Shown here: piece after piece, positions 13,644 through 63,705 of the stretch
Layout: the number at the start of each line of letters is the position of its first letter
Numbering within the stretch: the stretch's first letter is position 1
From: Candidatus Physcousia equi
GTDB lineage: Bacteria; Bacteroidota; Bacteroidia; Bacteroidales; Bacteroidaceae
DNA length: 64,000 nucleotides
Reading direction: 5' to 3'
NCBI GenBank assembly: GCA_018065005.1
Contig: JAGHUD010000059.1
Span: 31,087-95,086 of the forward strand
Program-made: the position numbers and the translations under genes
Notes under the pieces: model-generated
What the model was told of the DNA's origin: nothing
The model's input: the letters and a program-made list of their open reading frames with translations, nothing else
Database searches by the model: none

Positions 13644-13947
13644 CATAAATAAAGACTAAATACAGAAACTACAAGGAACCAAGGTTCATCATGCGCTTTT
13701 AATCGCACTACAAATAGAGCCCTAACGCTACACATTTTTCATATAAGGTTAATCATACACTTGCTGACTGCACAATTTAATCTGAATAAATGACTGAATC
13801 AAAGTGTAGACTCAATAAGAGGAGCAAAGTGTCTTAGATAGCATATGATTATGCAAAAGTTAGCACTCCGAATTTGTAGATACGTAAAACAGAACTTTTG
13901 AAAACAGGAAAGAAGCAAGTTGTAATCTGAATCGATGGATTAACTGA

Positions 13948-14046
13948 ATCAACAGATTAACCGAATCAATAAATTAGCTAATCAACAGATTAACCGCAAC
14001 AATAAATTAACTAATCAACAGATTAACCGAATCGACAAATTAGCTA
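13948..14046 (+). repeat. Tandem repeat, three 33-bp units
   Basis: atcaacagattaaccgaatcaataaattagcta at 13948, 13981 and 14014 with few substitutions; degenerate copies flank it. Confidence 0.9.
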
Positions 14047-14121
14047 ATCTACAAATTGCCTAAGGCGCTTGATAATCCAAACAACTGAGAAAAATCTAAA
14101 ACTAATTAAATAATTACTATT

Positions 14122-19390: not shown

Positions 19391-19419
19391 ACCCCTCCTC
19401 AAAAGGGAGGGGCTTTTTT
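19391..19419 (+). terminator. Rho-independent terminator of tkt
   Basis: CCCCTCC-tcaaaag-GGAGGGG followed by CTTTTTT. Confidence 0.85.
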
Positions 19420-19421
19420 GT

Positions 19422-19607
19422 ACTATTCAGAACAGCTTTACTAATCAGAACATTTTGTACTAATCAGAACAGCTCGTACTAATCAGAACAGATTGTACTA
19501 ATCAGAACAGCTTGTACTAATCAAAACAGATTGTACTAATCAGAACAGATTTACTAATCAGAACAGATTTACTAATCAGAACAGATTGTACTAATCAGAA
19601 CAGATAG
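19422..19607 (+). repeat. Tandem repeat, about ten 18-19-bp units
   Basis: actaatcagaacag(a/c)ttgt starting at 19422, 19440, 19459, 19478, 19497, 19516, 19535, 19553, 19571, 19590. Confidence 0.95.
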
Positions 19608-28745: not shown

Positions 28746-29060
28746 GACATCCGTCGCAGATGGAAACATCCGGTCTCGCTGCCCTTCATGAACTGACGGT
28801 TGTTGGAGCGGGTGTATGTCCCGCCATTTGTCAAGATTTCAGAAAGTGCGGGTAGGCTGCACTCCTGCTCGTGGCAACCGACTTCATCAGCCATGACAGC
28901 CCGCTGCGTTGGGCTCCCGGCTCCACCGCCGAGCAGAAGAAAGCTGGTTCCACACGCCTTCGTGCCGGTGGTTTGGGCAAGCTCCGATGTATCAAACCTT
29001 TCCCTTTCATTATCAGCATTTTCGCGAGCATCAATTTGGAGCAGTGCGTAGGGTGATTTT
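28742..29060 (-). pseudogene. Possible 3' remnant of a molybdopterin oxidoreductase-like gene
   Basis: Frame reads ...ADEVGCHEQECSLPALSEILTNGGTYTRSNNRQFMKGSETG..., resembling the LPA..x..GTYTNSExR segment of NuoG/Fdh-type proteins; no valid 5' end, since upstream is the palindrome array. Confidence 0.3.
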
Positions 29061-29163
29061 TTTCTGCTCGAGAAACCGAAAGTTTCTGCTCGAGAAACTG
29101 ACAATTTCTGCTGCAGAAACTTTCGGTTTCCGCTGCAGAAAAAATTATTTTCTGCAGCGAAAC
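29061..29163. repeat. Palindromic array A: five units at exact 22-bp period
   Basis: TTTCTGCTCGAGAAAC / TTTCTGCTGCAGAAAC variants starting at 29061, 29083, 29105, 29127, 29149. Confidence 0.93.
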
Positions 29164-29279
29164 TTTTTTGTGCCTGCGCAGACGATTGTGGATGTGTGGT
29201 CGAGAAACGATCGCGAGGCGCACGAAGAGAGCACGTCGGGCGTTGGTGTTTGTAAAAATTCTTTACTTCGCAGCCCCCC

Positions 29280-41310: not shown

Positions 41311-42471
41311 ATGAGCACATCACAACTCATCGTAAAACCGGTCGAAAACCGCAGAGACCTAAAGAAATTTATTCGATTCAATTACGAGCTTTATAAGAAC
41401 AACCCCTATGCAGTGCCTGATTTGCTGGAGGATTTGCTCGACACATTTAATCCCAAGAAGAACGCCGCTTATGACTTTTGTCGGTCGCAGCTCTTTCTGG
41501 CATGGCGTGATGGGAAAATAGTGGGTCGTGTTGCAGCCATCATCAATGACCGCGCCAACGAAACCTGGAACACCAAGAACGTGCGCTTCGGGTGGATAGA
41601 TTTCATCGACGACATTGAAGTGAGTCGCGCCCTCATTGACGTGGTGAGCGAATGGGGAAAGCAGCAAGGCATGACACACATTGTAGGTCCGCTCGGATTT
41701 ACGGATATGGATCCCGAAGGAATGCTCGTGGAAGGATATGACCGACTTTCCACCATGTCTACGATCTACAACTACCCCTATTACCCCGAGCACATTGCAC
41801 AACTCGGTTTTGAGAAAGAAGTGGGATGGGTGGAACGCCTTGTCACCGTGCCGCACGCCGGCCATCACGCGCAAGACGACAAATACTTCCGCGTAGCAAA
41901 AGTCGTAGAAAAACGTCTCAACCTGAAGACAGTCAAGTTCAGGAACCTCAATGACATCAAGAGGGGAAACTATGCACACAAGATTTTCGACGTCATCAAC
42001 CGGTCGTATGCGCCACTGTATGGTTTCAGCAAGTTGATGGAACGACAGATTGATTCTTACGCCGAAAATTATCTTCGTTTCATCGACATGAGACTGCTGA
42101 CCGTCATTGAAAACGAAGAAGGTGAAGTTGTTGCCATTGGTATCGGCATGGGGTCGCTCTCGCACGCCATCCAAAAAGCAAAATCCAAGATCTTTCCTTT
42201 CGGATGGGTTCCGCTGCTCAAGGCTCTGAAATGCGAGAAGCATCGCTCGGAGTATCTGGACCTTCTGCTCGTAGGCGTTGTGCCCGAATATCAGGGAAAG
42301 GGCGTCAATGCCATGCTTTTCGCCGACCTCATCCCCATTGCTCAAAAGATGGGCTTCAAGTGGGGCGAGACGCACTGTCAGCTCGAAGACAATGACAAGA
42401 GCCAGGATCAATGGGCTTACCTGGAATGCGAGATTCACAAGAGAAGAAATTGCTACAAGAAAAAACTCTAA
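41311..42471 (+). CDS. GNAT-like N-acetyltransferase family protein (conserved hypothetical)
   Basis: FLAWRDGKIVGRVAAIINDRANE, LLLVGVVPEYQGKGVNAMLFADLIPIAQKMGFKWGETHCQLEDN. Confidence 0.75.
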   Translation: MSTSQLIVKPVENRRDLKKFIRFNYELYKNNPYAVPDLLEDLLDTFNPKKNAAYDFCRSQLFLAWRDGKIVGRVAAIINDRANETWNTKNVRFGWIDFIDDIEVSRALIDVVSEWGKQQGMTHIVGPLGFTDMDPEGMLVEGYDRLSTMSTIYNYPYYPEHIAQLGFEKEVGWVERLVTVPHAGHHAQDDKYFRVAKVVEKRLNLKTVKFRNLNDIKRGNYAHKIFDVINRSYAPLYGFSKLMERQIDSYAENYLRFIDMRLLTVIENEEGEVVAIGIGMGSLSHAIQKAKSKIFPFGWVPLLKALKCEKHRSEYLDLLLVGVVPEYQGKGVNAMLFADLIPIAQKMGFKWGETHCQLEDNDKSQDQWAYLECEIHKRRNCYKKKL

Positions 42472-42636
42472 GCTTGCTTAACTACTCTAAGCCAGCCTAA
42501 ACTCTCAAAGCCCGTTTAAACTCTTTAAGCCCGCTTAAACTCCCTAAACCTGCCTAAACTCTCTAAGCCCGCTTAAACTCTCTAAACCTACCTAATCGCC
42601 ATAAACCCTCCTAACCACTCTAAACCTGCCTAAACC
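42466..42636 (+). repeat. Tandem repeat, nine units at exact 19-bp period
   Basis: ctctaagcccgcttaaact-type units starting at 42466, 42485, 42504, 42523, 42542, 42561, 42580, 42599, 42618. Confidence 0.95.
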
Positions 42637-42672
42637 ACCACCGCTACCCTATCCGGTACAGCGAGAAACAGC

Positions 42673-46763: not shown

Positions 46764-47195
46764 ATGGTCACCTATAATGCCATGAACGTCGCACTGCCCA
46801 ACCTCGACCAACAGGCAACAACGCAGTGGCTCGCCCAGGTGGCACAAGGCTATGGGCGGCGATTGGGCGACATCAACTATATCTTCGTGGACGATGAAGA
46901 GATCTTGCGCCTCAACCGTGAGTTCGTCGGACACGACTACTACACCGACCACATCGGATTCGACTACTGCGAAGCAGACATCCTCGCTGGCGACATTTTC
47001 ATCTCGCTCGACACCATCCGCACCAACGCCGAGCTCTTCCATGCCACCTACCAGCATGAGCTCTACCGCGTCATCGCTCATGGTTTGCTCCACCTGTGCG
47101 GCATCGAGGACAAGACGCCAGCCGACCGCATGGTGATGGAAGAAGCAGAGAATAAAGCACTCTCACAAACGGCACTACACACAGAATGGATATAA
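46764..47195 (+). CDS. ybeY: Endoribonuclease YbeY
   Basis: INYIFVDDEEILRLNREFVGHDYYTDHIGFDY, RVIAHGLLHLCGIEDKTPADRMVMEEAE. Confidence 0.92.
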   Translation: MVTYNAMNVALPNLDQQATTQWLAQVAQGYGRRLGDINYIFVDDEEILRLNREFVGHDYYTDHIGFDYCEADILAGDIFISLDTIRTNAELFHATYQHELYRVIAHGLLHLCGIEDKTPADRMVMEEAENKALSQTALHTEWI

Positions 47196-50100
47196 AGGAA
47201 CTCGTAGGACTCTATGCCCACCACCCTAGGGTGAAAGCCTTGAGGGCGGCGCTTTGCAGCGATCGCCATCCACGCATCTTATTGCAGGGCATGCAGGCTT
47301 CTGCCCTACCGCTCTGCTTCGCTGCACTTGCCGTGGGCGAAGAAAAGCGAAGCGCAAAGTCCTGCACGCAGAATGCCCCCTTCGTCTTCGTTGCCGAAGA
47401 CCATGAAAGTGCGGGCTATCTCTACCACGACCTCACGCAGATGATGGGCGAGAACGCTGTCCTCTTCTTCCCCAGTTCCTTCCGTCGAGCCGTCAAGTAT
47501 GGGCAAAAGGACTCCGCCAACGAGATTCTGCGCACTGAAGTGCTGAGCCGCATTGCCAAGAAGACACTGCCTCTGTATATCGTCACGTTTCCCGATGCCT
47601 TGTGCGAACTGGTGGTGAGCCATGACGAACTGGACGACCAAACACTCATCCTGCGGCGCGGCGAGACCACCGACATCAGCCTGCTCCAAGACATGCTGGT
47701 CGGTTTCGGCTTCGAGCGCACCGACTACGTCTACGAGCCAGGACAGTTTGCCGTGCGCGGCAGCATCGTGGACATCTTCAGTTTCTCCTCCGAATATCCC
47801 TATCGCCTCGACTTTTTCGGCGACGAGCTGGACAGCATCCGCACCTTTGAAATAGAGACCCAACTCTCGCAAGGAAAAAAAGAGGAAATCACCATCGTGC
47901 CGCGCCTGCAACACACACGACACACACATGAGAGTGTGCTGCGCTTCCTGCCTCAAGACACGCTTTTCGTGATGAACGACCTCGCCTACCTCTGCGAGTC
48001 GGTGGAGCACATCTTCGAGGAGGGCTTCTCAGCCCAAGCCGTCGTGGAGCAAAATGCTACGGGCGAGCAGAAGGTGTGGGAGCGAGACCAAATGCTCATC
48101 GACGGCGAAGCCTTCAAGCGTGAGATGCTCAACTTCAAGCGCATTGAGGTCATGAGCAGCACGCGCGACACAGAGCATCCCTGCGTCATCCCCTTTGCCA
48201 TCACGCCACAACCCACCTTCCACAAAAACTTCGACCTCGTGCACTCCACCATGCAGCACTACTGCTACGAGGGATACAAAGTCTTTGTTCTGGCAGACTC
48301 GCTCAAGCAGACCGAACGACTCAAAAGCATCTTTGAGGACCAAGGCAGAGCCATCAGTTTCACGCCCATAGAGCACACCCTACATAGCGGATTCGTGGAT
48401 GGAGAACTGAAGCTCTGTCTGTTCACCGACCATCAGATCTTCGACCGCTTCCACAAATACAACCTGCGAAGCGACAAAGCCAGATCGGCAAAAATGGCAC
48501 TCTCGCTCAAGGAACTACAACAGTTCGAGATTGGCGACTATGTGGTGCATGCCGACCATGGAGTGGGCACCTTCGGGGGGTTGAAGACGAAAAAGGTGAA
48601 TGGTGTGATGCAGGAGATCATCCAAATCAACTATGCCGATTCGGGCATGATCTATGTCAGTCTGCACGCCCTCCACAAAGTGAGCAAATACAGATCAAGG
48701 GAAGGCGTCACGCCCCGCATCAACAAACTCGGTTCGGGCGCTTGGGAGCGCATGAAGGAGCGCACCAAGACCAAAATCAAGGACATCGCACGCGACCTTA
48801 TTCGACTCTACGCCCAACGAAAAGAGGAAAAGGGATTTTCCTTTTCGCCCGACAGTTTCATGCAGCACGAACTTGAGGCTTCCTTTCTCTATGAGGACAC
48901 ACCCGACCAGAGCCGAGCCACGCTCGACGTGAAGACCGACATGGAAAAGAGCCGACCTATGGATCGACTCGTCTGCGGTGATGTCGGATTCGGCAAGACA
49001 GAAGTGGCCATACGCGCTGCGTTCAAGGCTTGCAGCGACAACAAGCAGGTGGCAGTCTTGGTGCCCACAACCGTGCTTGCCTATCAGCACTACCACACCT
49101 TCAAGCGCCGCCTCAACGATTTTCCCGTCCGCGTCGAATACCTCTCGCGCGCACGCACTCCCAAACAAGTGAAGGAGGTGATGAAAGGACTGGAAGACGG
49201 CACGGTGAACATCGTCATCGGCACCCATAAGCTCATTGGGAAGTCAGTAAAATTTCACGACCTGGGGCTGCTCATCATCGACGAAGAACAGAAGTTCGGC
49301 GTCTCCACGAAAGAACGCCTGCGCCAGATGCGCACCAACGTCGACACCCTCACCCTCACCGCAACGCCCATACCCCGCACGCTGCAATTCAGCCTTATGG
49401 GTGCACGCGACCTTAGTGTCATCCAGACGCCTCCGCCCAATCGCTATCCCATCCAAACGGAGTTGCACACCTTTCAGGCGAGTGTCATTGCTGATGCCAT
49501 CAATTTCGAGATGAGCAGAAACGGACAGGTCTTCTTCGTCACCCACCGCATAGCCAACCTGCCTGACCTCGTGGCACTCGTCAACAAGTATGTGCCCGAT
49601 GCCCGTGTCTGTGTGGGCCATGGGCAGATGAACAGTGAGGAGCTCGAACGCATCATCTACGACTTCGCCAACTACGACTATGACGTGCTCATCTCCACCA
49701 CCATCGTGGAGAGCGGCATCGACATCCCCAATGCCAACACCATCATCATCAACAATGCCGACCACTTCGGACTTGCCGACCTGCACCAAATGAGGGGGCG
49801 TGTGGGACGCTCCAACAAGAAGGCGTTCTGCTACTTGCTGGCACCTCCGCTCAGTGTCTTGGCGCCCGAAGCGAGACGCCGTCTGCAGGCCGTCGAGAAC
49901 TTCTCCGACTTGGGCAGCGGCATCCACCTTGCCATGCAAGACCTCGACATCAGAGGAGCGGGCAATATGCTGGGGGCTGAACAGAGTGGATTCATAAGCG
50001 ACCTTGGCTACGAAACCTACCAGCGCATCCTCAACGAAGCCGTGAAGGAACTGCGCAACGATGAGTTCAAGCAACTCTATGAACAACAGATTGCAGAAGG

Positions 50101-50590
50101 CGACCAGGTGGACGGTAGCGACTTCGTCGACGAATGCGTCATCGACAGCGACCTCAACGTCTGTTTCTCCGAGCAATACGTCCCCACCAGTGCCGAGCGT
50201 ATGCTGCTCTATCGGGAACTCGACAGTTTGGAAACAGACCTACAGATTGAGCAGTTCCGCAAACGGATGCTCGACCGCTTCGGTCCCATCCCGCCTGAAG
50301 GTGAAGAACTCATCGAGGTGGTGCGTTTGCGTCGCCTCGGCAAACAGTTTGGAGCTGAGCGTGTCGTGCTCAAGGGCAATCGTCTGCGTCTTTTTCTCAT
50401 CAACCGCATCGAGAGTCCTTTCTATCAGAGCGCGGCATTCGACAAGATGATCAACTACACCTTCTCTCATGCTGCCACTTGTGGCATCAACAGAGAACAG
50501 TATTGTTTCCACGCCAAAGACATTGCCACGATTCATCAAGCCGTCGACCTTCTCCTCCAGATGGATAAGGAGCAGGTGACGAGACTCTGA
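47186..50590 (+). CDS. mfd: Transcription-repair coupling factor
   Basis: 1134 aa; VVHADHGVGTFGGL, DRLVCGDVGFGKTEVAIRAAF, LTLTATPIPRTL, DLHQMRGRVGRSNKKAFCY. Confidence 0.97.
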   Translation: MDIKELVGLYAHHPRVKALRAALCSDRHPRILLQGMQASALPLCFAALAVGEEKRSAKSCTQNAPFVFVAEDHESAGYLYHDLTQMMGENAVLFFPSSFRRAVKYGQKDSANEILRTEVLSRIAKKTLPLYIVTFPDALCELVVSHDELDDQTLILRRGETTDISLLQDMLVGFGFERTDYVYEPGQFAVRGSIVDIFSFSSEYPYRLDFFGDELDSIRTFEIETQLSQGKKEEITIVPRLQHTRHTHESVLRFLPQDTLFVMNDLAYLCESVEHIFEEGFSAQAVVEQNATGEQKVWERDQMLIDGEAFKREMLNFKRIEVMSSTRDTEHPCVIPFAITPQPTFHKNFDLVHSTMQHYCYEGYKVFVLADSLKQTERLKSIFEDQGRAISFTPIEHTLHSGFVDGELKLCLFTDHQIFDRFHKYNLRSDKARSAKMALSLKELQQFEIGDYVVHADHGVGTFGGLKTKKVNGVMQEIIQINYADSGMIYVSLHALHKVSKYRSREGVTPRINKLGSGAWERMKERTKTKIKDIARDLIRLYAQRKEEKGFSFSPDSFMQHELEASFLYEDTPDQSRATLDVKTDMEKSRPMDRLVCGDVGFGKTEVAIRAAFKACSDNKQVAVLVPTTVLAYQHYHTFKRRLNDFPVRVEYLSRARTPKQVKEVMKGLEDGTVNIVIGTHKLIGKSVKFHDLGLLIIDEEQKFGVSTKERLRQMRTNVDTLTLTATPIPRTLQFSLMGARDLSVIQTPPPNRYPIQTELHTFQASVIADAINFEMSRNGQVFFVTHRIANLPDLVALVNKYVPDARVCVGHGQMNSEELERIIYDFANYDYDVLISTTIVESGIDIPNANTIIINNADHFGLADLHQMRGRVGRSNKKAFCYLLAPPLSVLAPEARRRLQAVENFSDLGSGIHLAMQDLDIRGAGNMLGAEQSGFISDLGYETYQRILNEAVKELRNDEFKQLYEQQIAEGDQVDGSDFVDECVIDSDLNVCFSEQYVPTSAERMLLYRELDSLETDLQIEQFRKRMLDRFGPIPPEGEELIEVVRLRRLGKQFGAERVVLKGNRLRLFLINRIESPFYQSAAFDKMINYTFSHAATCGINREQYCFHAKDIATIHQAVDLLLQMDKEQVTRL

Positions 50591-50631
50591 ATAGCCCAAA
50601 AGCGTGACTCACCTTCTTGCTGATTTTACAC

Positions 50632-50756
50632 CTCTGCAGAGAAACAAAAAAGTTTCTGCAGCAGAAACTGAAAAGTTCTGCAGCAGAAACTGGAAAGTTC
50701 TGCAGCAGAAACCGGGAAGTTCTGCAGCAGAAACCGGGAAGTTCTGCTGCGGGACC
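50632..50756. repeat. Palindromic array B: six units at 22-bp period
   Basis: TTCTGCAGCAGAAAC units at about 50632 (degenerate), 50654, 50676, 50698, 50720, 50742. Confidence 0.95.
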
Positions 50757-50867
50757 GAAAAAGGTGTCGTCATCGGCACACAATTTCACAGTAGATGGGC
50801 TCGATCATCGCCCTCAATCATCTGATCCGACATCCGATTATGAGATGTGGACAGAGAGAAACAAAAA

Positions 50868-50913
50868 AAAGCATCCTTCGCCATGTCCTAACGACACGGA
50901 TGAAGGATGCTTT
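50868..50913 (-). terminator. Terminator of the small winged-helix gene
   Basis: AAAGCATCCTTC...GAAGGATGCTTT with A8 (U-tract on minus). Confidence 0.88.
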
Positions 50914-50934: not shown

Positions 50935-51135
50935 TTACTTCAGAACAACGGTGATTTCCTTACCCTCTTCGGTAACCTCGAGCTTGTCTTCGCGGAGCAA
51001 CCAACCCATAGCAAGGAAAAGCTCCTTGTCAGTCTTGATCTTAGCCACCTTCTTGAGGTCCTTGGTGTTCATTGCACCATTTTCGCTGAGAGCAGTCCAG
51101 ATAGCGCCTGCTACATTTCCAATCTTTTCGTTCAT
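50935..51135 (-). CDS. Small winged helix-turn-helix domain protein (DUF2582-like)
   Basis: MNEKIGNVAGAIWTALSENGAMNTKDLKKVAKIKTDKELFLAMGWLLREDKLEVTEEGKEITVVLK. Confidence 0.8.
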   Translation of the reverse strand: MNEKIGNVAGAIWTALSENGAMNTKDLKKVAKIKTDKELFLAMGWLLREDKLEVTEEGKEITVVLK

Positions 51136-57383: not shown

Positions 57384-57595
57384 TCTTGAGAGAGAGAGCT
57401 ACTCTTTTCGCCTCGTGCAACCTGAGAGAAAACCTACTCTTTTCGCCTCGTGCGTCCTAAGAGAAGTCTACTCTTTTCACCTCGTGCAACCTAAGAGAAA
57501 ATCTACTCTTTTCACCTCGTGCAACCTAAGAGAGATCTACTTTCTTTCCCTCGTGCAGTCTAAGAGAGAAAACGCTCTCTCCCCCTCGTGCAGCT
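57384..57595. repeat. Tandem repeat, six units alternating 34/35-bp period
   Basis: cctcgtgcaacctaagagaaaatctactcttttca; cctcg anchors at 57411, 57446, 57480, 57515, 57549, 57584. Confidence 0.95.
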
Positions 57596-63634: not shown

Positions 63635-63647
63635 CACCTCATTTCAG

Positions 63648-63685
63648 TTTCTGCTACAGAAACTGCCGGTTTCTGCTGCAGAAAC
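63648..63685. repeat. Palindromic array C: two units at 22-bp period
   Basis: TTTCTGCTACAGAAAC (63648) and TTTCTGCTGCAGAAAC (63670). Confidence 0.92.
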
Positions 63686-63705
63686 TTTTTTGCCCACACA
63701 AAAAG

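Follow-up and report, generated by a model that had tools for sequence, protein, structure and literature searches.

Among the repeats that lie between bacterial genes, BIME-2 arrays bind gyrase (PMC2817692, PMC6379681), whose motif spans about 130 bp with a 10.75-bp periodicity, and this binding has been proposed to aid genome organization (PMC6379681). The BrickBuilt MITE of Porphyromonas gingivalis consists of a 23-nt unit in 1 to 23 copies, with a leader and a tail that carry terminal inverted repeats, at 19 loci (PMC4596501). REPINs are inverted pairs of REPs moved by a RAYT, and parS and matS are single sites of conserved sequence, bound by an architectural protein. The parS site (TGTTTCACGTGAAACA) has 4 bp between its half-sites. 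Bacterial chromosomes are commonly described as divided into supercoiled domains of roughly 10-20 kb, for which evenly placed sequence marks are, to our knowledge, hardly known. Here we describe a family of phased palindromic arrays, beginning with array B, which lies behind mfd in the window (the whole stretch of 64,000 nucleotides that was analyzed).

Array B is a direct tandem array with a 22-bp period (50633-50757; 92% matches by TRF). As the original prediction had stated, it lies between mfd and a convergent winged-helix gene, and it has the same palindrome and fixed 22-bp phase as array A, a kinship now supported, and the family is found throughout the genome. A third array in the window was missing from that earlier account. 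The features, in window positions, are:

29059-29165: array A, with five units in 22-bp phase that belong to the family of array B
47186-50590, plus strand: mfd (transcription-repair coupling factor), 1134 aa, with UvrB_inter, CarD_TRCF_RID, DEAD, Helicase_C and TRCF
50629-50647: left-hand degenerate unit of array B, CACCTCTGCAGAGAAACAA, in phase, with 8/18 matches to AGTTTCTGCNGCAGAAACT and 75% of the reference repeat
50643-50669, minus strand: terminator-like site leading out of array B towards mfd, the first palindrome followed by TTTTTTGTTTC on the minus strand
50651-50669, 50673-50691, 50695-50713 and 50717-50735: clear palindromic units of array B, in exact 22-bp phase
50739-50757: right-hand degenerate unit of array B, AAGTTCTGCTGCGGGACCG, in phase, with 12/18 matches to AGTTTCTGCNGCAGAAACT
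50868-50913, minus strand: intrinsic terminator of the DUF2582 gene, with 12-nt arms that are 100% complementary and a minus-strand T run
50935-51135, minus strand: DUF2582 small winged-helix gene, convergent to mfd (PF10771, E 9.5e-18)
63646-63686: third array, two units in 22-bp phase, 11 nt past a stop codon

Six positions in strict 22-bp register span 50629-50757, namely four clear units and a degenerate one at each end; the array predicted here is real, but its count of five clear units and one degenerate unit has to be revised. The clear units match AGTTTCTGCNGCAGAAACT at 18, 16, 15 and 15 of 18 positions. A perfect palindrome of 19 nt, its arms 9 bp long, had been put forward as the unit; this is true of 50651-50669 only (AGTTTCTGC-A-GCAGAAACT, 18/18), and units 2-4 are imperfect, with 6-7 of 9 self-complementary pairs. 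The array starts 60 nt past mfd, and its single-strand DNA fold has a z value of -5.3. The separate terminator of the convergent gene was found as predicted, 12-bp arms followed by a T run. The 14-mer AGAGAAACAAAAAA occurs twice, at the left edge of array B (50638-50651) and on the T-run side of the DUF2582 terminator (50855-50868).

The original prediction had also raised a special tie between the arrays and the adjoining winged-helix protein. DUF2582 occurs in 9/9 genomes of the family that were tested, regardless of which arrays they have, and is single-copy in the genome of the window (G000); a special tie is not supported, the gene being ubiquitous. Two absences had been named in advance as telling against the prediction. 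One, the lack of such an array at the mfd locus of relatives, was seen in L031-L034, whereas the other, its lack elsewhere in the genome, is contradicted by a genome-wide family. No array lies behind mfd in the sister species L031, L033 and L034, and L032 has there a different palindromic repeat with an 18-bp period. In the sister genomes there is another array type, in which TCTAGA recurs in 9-bp phase together with a variable NNN, and one such array stands behind mfd (L032:7413-7580); the 9-bp TCTAGANNN arrays were put aside as another kind. Counts of CTAGANNNTCTAG in the sister genomes G151, G152 and G153 are 17, 40 and 65, against 0, 1 and 3 for the reversed controls.

G000 is a draft MAG of 2.43 Mb in 79 contigs (86% complete), in which the exact 16-mer TTTCTGNNNCAGAAAC occurs 116 times forward and 123 times reverse, its reversed control 0 times. 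We read 787 kb of it in full and found 39 arrays with 156 units, which extrapolates to about 120 arrays in the whole genome. Steps between units are exactly 22 bp in 113 of 117 cases, 28 of the 39 arrays have 4-5 units, and the palindromes are separated by spacers of 3-5 nt. Such spacers led us to reject a CRISPR array, where they would be unique and of repeat-like length. A 3-unit profile separates the arrays fully, with scores of 12-93 (86 for array B) where Markov-shuffled sequence reaches 2.2 at most, and detected no decayed intermediate arrays in the G000 sequence read. The 22-bp GC rhythm of the arrays has a weaker 11-bp harmonic. Gene context was assigned with a simple hexamer-based caller written for this analysis. 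All 39 arrays lie outside called genes, usually behind stop codons, and every one is at least 100 nt from any start codon; 22 are in tandem, 12 in convergent and 2 in divergent gaps (n=36), compared with 165, 49 and 62 for the background of all gaps between genes that are 100 bp or longer. The sequences around the G000 arrays are unrelated from one array to the next; they have neither a flank nor a terminal repeat in common and show no target duplication. A phage or plasmid origin was dismissed for want of any match. Spacer words are repeated within arrays more often than expected (23 pairs versus 8.6), which indicates that units do duplicate locally. Snap-back growth was rejected because it is same-orientation pairs that are in excess, with 3 inverted pairs where 8.4 were expected.

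The arrays occur at a density of one per ~20 kb, and the gaps between them are far more even than chance placement would give; neither this regularity nor the 22-bp geometry across the bacterial family had been part of the original prediction. Between multi-unit arrays of G000 the mean gap is 21.6 kb, the minimum 11.0 kb and the CV 0.36, compared with a CV of 0.87 for uniform placement; none of 20,000 simulations reached a CV as low as 0.36 (p<5e-5), and 0 of 23 gaps fell below 10.8 kb where 10.8 were expected to do so (p<5e-5). Adding two solitary units raised the CV to 0.40, and the even spacing also holds against random picks among real non-divergent intergenic regions. As some contigs had been picked after their arrays were known, we repeated the test on the exact matches, listed to contig C62 and with two contig ends guessed near the last array. 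The 27 gaps had a CV of 0.41 versus 0.86, and 2 gaps versus 12 expected were below 10 kb; among those listed is one of 8.4 kb, on contig C33. No assembly artefact is known to us by which long contigs would lose their short gaps. Spacing of this kind could come from selection for domain size or from self-avoiding insertion.

To compare species we used one genome for each. Exact TTTCTGNNNCAGAAAC is nearly confined to G000, with 0-1 copies in each of 150 other family genomes, and the geometry recurs with other sequences. G218, a horse-faeces MAG of the same genus (the genome of L034), has CCGCWGCGG cores at exactly 22 bp in arrays of 3-4 units, with different, AT-rich spacers; G266, of the same genus, has a few such arrays. 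Among the arrays read in G218, about half have a second palindrome, AACCGGCTGACCTAGGGCAGCCGGT, after them (e.g., L178, L179, L187). G373 belongs to another genus, and its arrays consist of about four TTGGCAGCGGCCGCTGCCAA units with a step of exactly 22 bp; their 12 gaps, with single-unit chance matches taken out by hand, average 32 kb with a CV of 0.45 versus 0.85 (p=0.006). Several of the G373 arrays are near-identical along their whole length and have a one-sided flank of ~70 nt in common, so that there the array has spread as a unit; this flank is found at many G373 arrays (e.g., L213-L220), as though the arrays terminated some longer element that is itself dispersed. In G011, GCWGC pairs at 22 bp number 307 versus 14 for the control. 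G010, of the window's genus, has 17-19 intergenic period-22 arrays of several sequences in 400 kb, and their spacing is not clearly even (CV 0.64, p=0.06). Array positions in G000, of which a third was read, are conserved no more than chance in G218, G010 and G373.

A 22-bp-step query led us to G373, G011 and G010, so these cannot show a preference for 22. In the mfd windows of 34 Bacteroidales genomes, chosen without that query, 22 and 44 are jointly the commonest period of at least 14 (9 arrays in 360 kb); other Bacteroidota have one or two arrays of period 22/44 in 491 kb. Pooled over the genomes read, 101 intergenic arrays are at 22/44 bp (~60 of them outside G000), and 26, 10 and 7 at 21, 20 and 23 bp. 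Dyad symmetry is present in 40% of the period-22 arrays as opposed to ~4% of those at 20, 21 and 23.

At one locus we could follow an array between species. A GTAC-type array, AGTACTTC-N4-GAAGTACT at 22 bp, is found in four species, each time 31-74 nt past the 3' end of one and the same DUF6078 gene, at

L045:826, L050:3068, L052:302 and L081:712: arrays of the DUF6078 locus

Between L052 and L081 all 6/6 array substitutions are in palindrome centres, and relative to L050 two units have an arm pair in which both sides are altered, C-G having become T-A. The palindrome is thus conserved, and some arrays stay put across species. GTAC-type arrays are too few in G428 and G422 to show a spacing.

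The reading we tentatively prefer is that these dispersed extragenic palindromic arrays act at the DNA level, in a BIME-2-like manner, as chromosome-wide landmarks of topology or domains. With a step of 22 bp, or two turns, the 4-5 palindromes of an array would form a ladder in helical register and could offer a landing strip of 88-110 bp to a symmetric, multimeric DNA-binding factor, possibly a topoisomerase such as gyrase or a protein that structures the nucleoid. Sited behind genes, in gaps where they do no harm, at intervals of about 20 kb, the arrays might then serve as topology or domain landmarks. That arrays unrelated in sequence keep an exact two-turn step speaks more for DNA read by a symmetric, in-register factor than for RNA. 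In favour of this reading are also the narrow range of unit numbers, the placement outside genes, the even spacing, the lack of decayed arrays, the array retained at the DUF6078 locus and the return of the geometry with other sequences in related species. The fit of 88-110 bp arrays and an 11-bp harmonic to the gyrase motif is only suggestive. Several observations count against a DNA-level landmark: a single sequence-specific protein would not bind all of the several 22-bp sequences inside G010, spacing in that genome is not clearly even, G428 and G422 have few such arrays, positions between genera are not conserved beyond chance, and hairpin and terminator features are present. It is tempting to speculate further that protein docking arrays of fluid sequence but fixed geometry hold DNA loops or supercoiling domains in place at steps of about 20 kb across Bacteroidaceae, as a chromosome ruler whose sequence follows its binder from species to species, though we consider this extension unlikely. 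With gaps rarely below ~11 kb and ~20 kb on average, the arrays are candidate domain marks in abundant gut bacteria.

Selfish miniature elements of the REPIN or MITE kind, in which the whole array is mobile and a resident array excludes new copies nearby, could account for the same spacing, assisted by selection against insertion in genes and promoters; we regard this origin, the strongest of the alternatives, as rather improbable, if not greatly so. Target immunity keeps new copies away in Mu and Tn7, the 11-kb minimum gap resembles such exclusion, copy number is species-specific, and the near-identical G373 arrays have their common one-sided flank. On the other hand, the G000 arrays lack any shared flank, terminal repeat or target duplication, and four species have retained one array beside the same gene. 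The evidence from Y1 transposase genes is divided, as they are present in G000 and G373 and were not found in array-bearing G218, G011 and G324, two of these being only 80% complete; RAYT-driven REPs were rejected on this ground, the transposase not being consistently present. G000 has two Y1 genes, and for the one at C1:49090 the nearest array is 3.6 kb away and another repeat lies beside it. This gene (C1:49090-49431) is of RAYT type, and the nearby repeat (50158-50251, in L113) is a different palindromic one of 44 bp, GATTACGAGGTAATCAGG..., apparently unrelated to the 22-bp family. Were the spacing due to target immunity, the arrays would represent a class of miniature elements whose copies avoid one another over long distances.

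The position of the arrays behind stop codons and their avoidance of divergent gaps would also suit elements of the RNA level, hairpins in tandem that terminate transcripts or protect the 3' ends of mRNA, and so would the terminator-like site at one edge of array B, which faces mfd, and its RNA fold, which is better than that of shuffles (z = -5.0). Hairpins, however, need neither a 22-bp phase nor ~20-kb spacing, and the signals expected of a transcript are weak: G-U exceeds A-C by only 65 to 53 in transcript sense (all pairs), T runs number 15 on the downstream side versus 6 (p=0.08), and arm changes within G000 are mostly uncompensated. The DUF2582 gene by array B has a terminator of its own, and all Rfam matches are sub-threshold, on which basis a known RNA family was rejected. 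A role at RNA 3' ends seems quite unlikely to us. Ordinary, functionless minisatellites produced by replication slippage are a very improbable source, even though intergenic tandem repeats are plentiful in these genomes, the window having 19-, 33- and 35-bp arrays, and spacer words recur within arrays as slippage would have it (23 pairs versus 8.6); slippage leaves unexplained one sequence at ~120 loci, the even gaps, the narrow unit number and the lack of decayed arrays. The other minisatellites of the window lie at 19418-19605 (19-bp units), 42466-42640 (19-bp), 57389-57592 (35-bp) and 13927-14063 (33-bp). As dispersed families they were discarded, three being single-locus in the 787 kb read and the 33-bp one having one further place.

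How, then, do the arrays compare with known systems? With REP and BIME-2 they have in common extragenic palindromes, small arrays, high copy number, species-specific sequence and a place behind genes, and the REP/BIME definition by palindromic, extragenic sequence in at least ~100 copies agrees with 116 exact 16-mers and 39/39 arrays outside called genes. Gyrase, IHF or Pol I binding is a further mark of REP/BIME sequences. They differ in having no GTAG or CGTC tag in the unit profile, the tag being a criterion for REPs (PMC2817692, PMC3733652), and in that the RAYT (a Y1 transposase) is not consistently present, the one whose surroundings were read in G000 not being flanked by these arrays. 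The exact 22-bp phase at all loci and the even ~20-kb spacing also set them apart from REP families, for none of which such spacing is described in the literature searched. Like REPINs they are small dispersed groups of palindromes able to spread as a unit, as seen in G373, although REPINs are pairs and here 4-5 palindromes are in phase. BrickBuilt belongs to the same bacterial order and likewise forms dispersed intergenic arrays with a unit of ~22 bp, but is described neither as palindromic nor as evenly spaced (PMC4596501), and the G000 arrays are without leader, tail or terminal inverted repeats and have steps of 22 bp in 113/117 cases. Like parS and matS, the arrays place short palindromes along the chromosome, and their GTTTC/GAAAC half-sites resemble parS; the half-sites are 7 bp apart instead of 4, and they stand in phased arrays, not as single sites. 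Neither these sequences nor an evenly spaced array family of Bacteroidales is described in the open literature searched, subscription papers and preprints being outside its scope. The family is a variant of extragenic palindromic arrays, and its most surprising feature is the even spacing.
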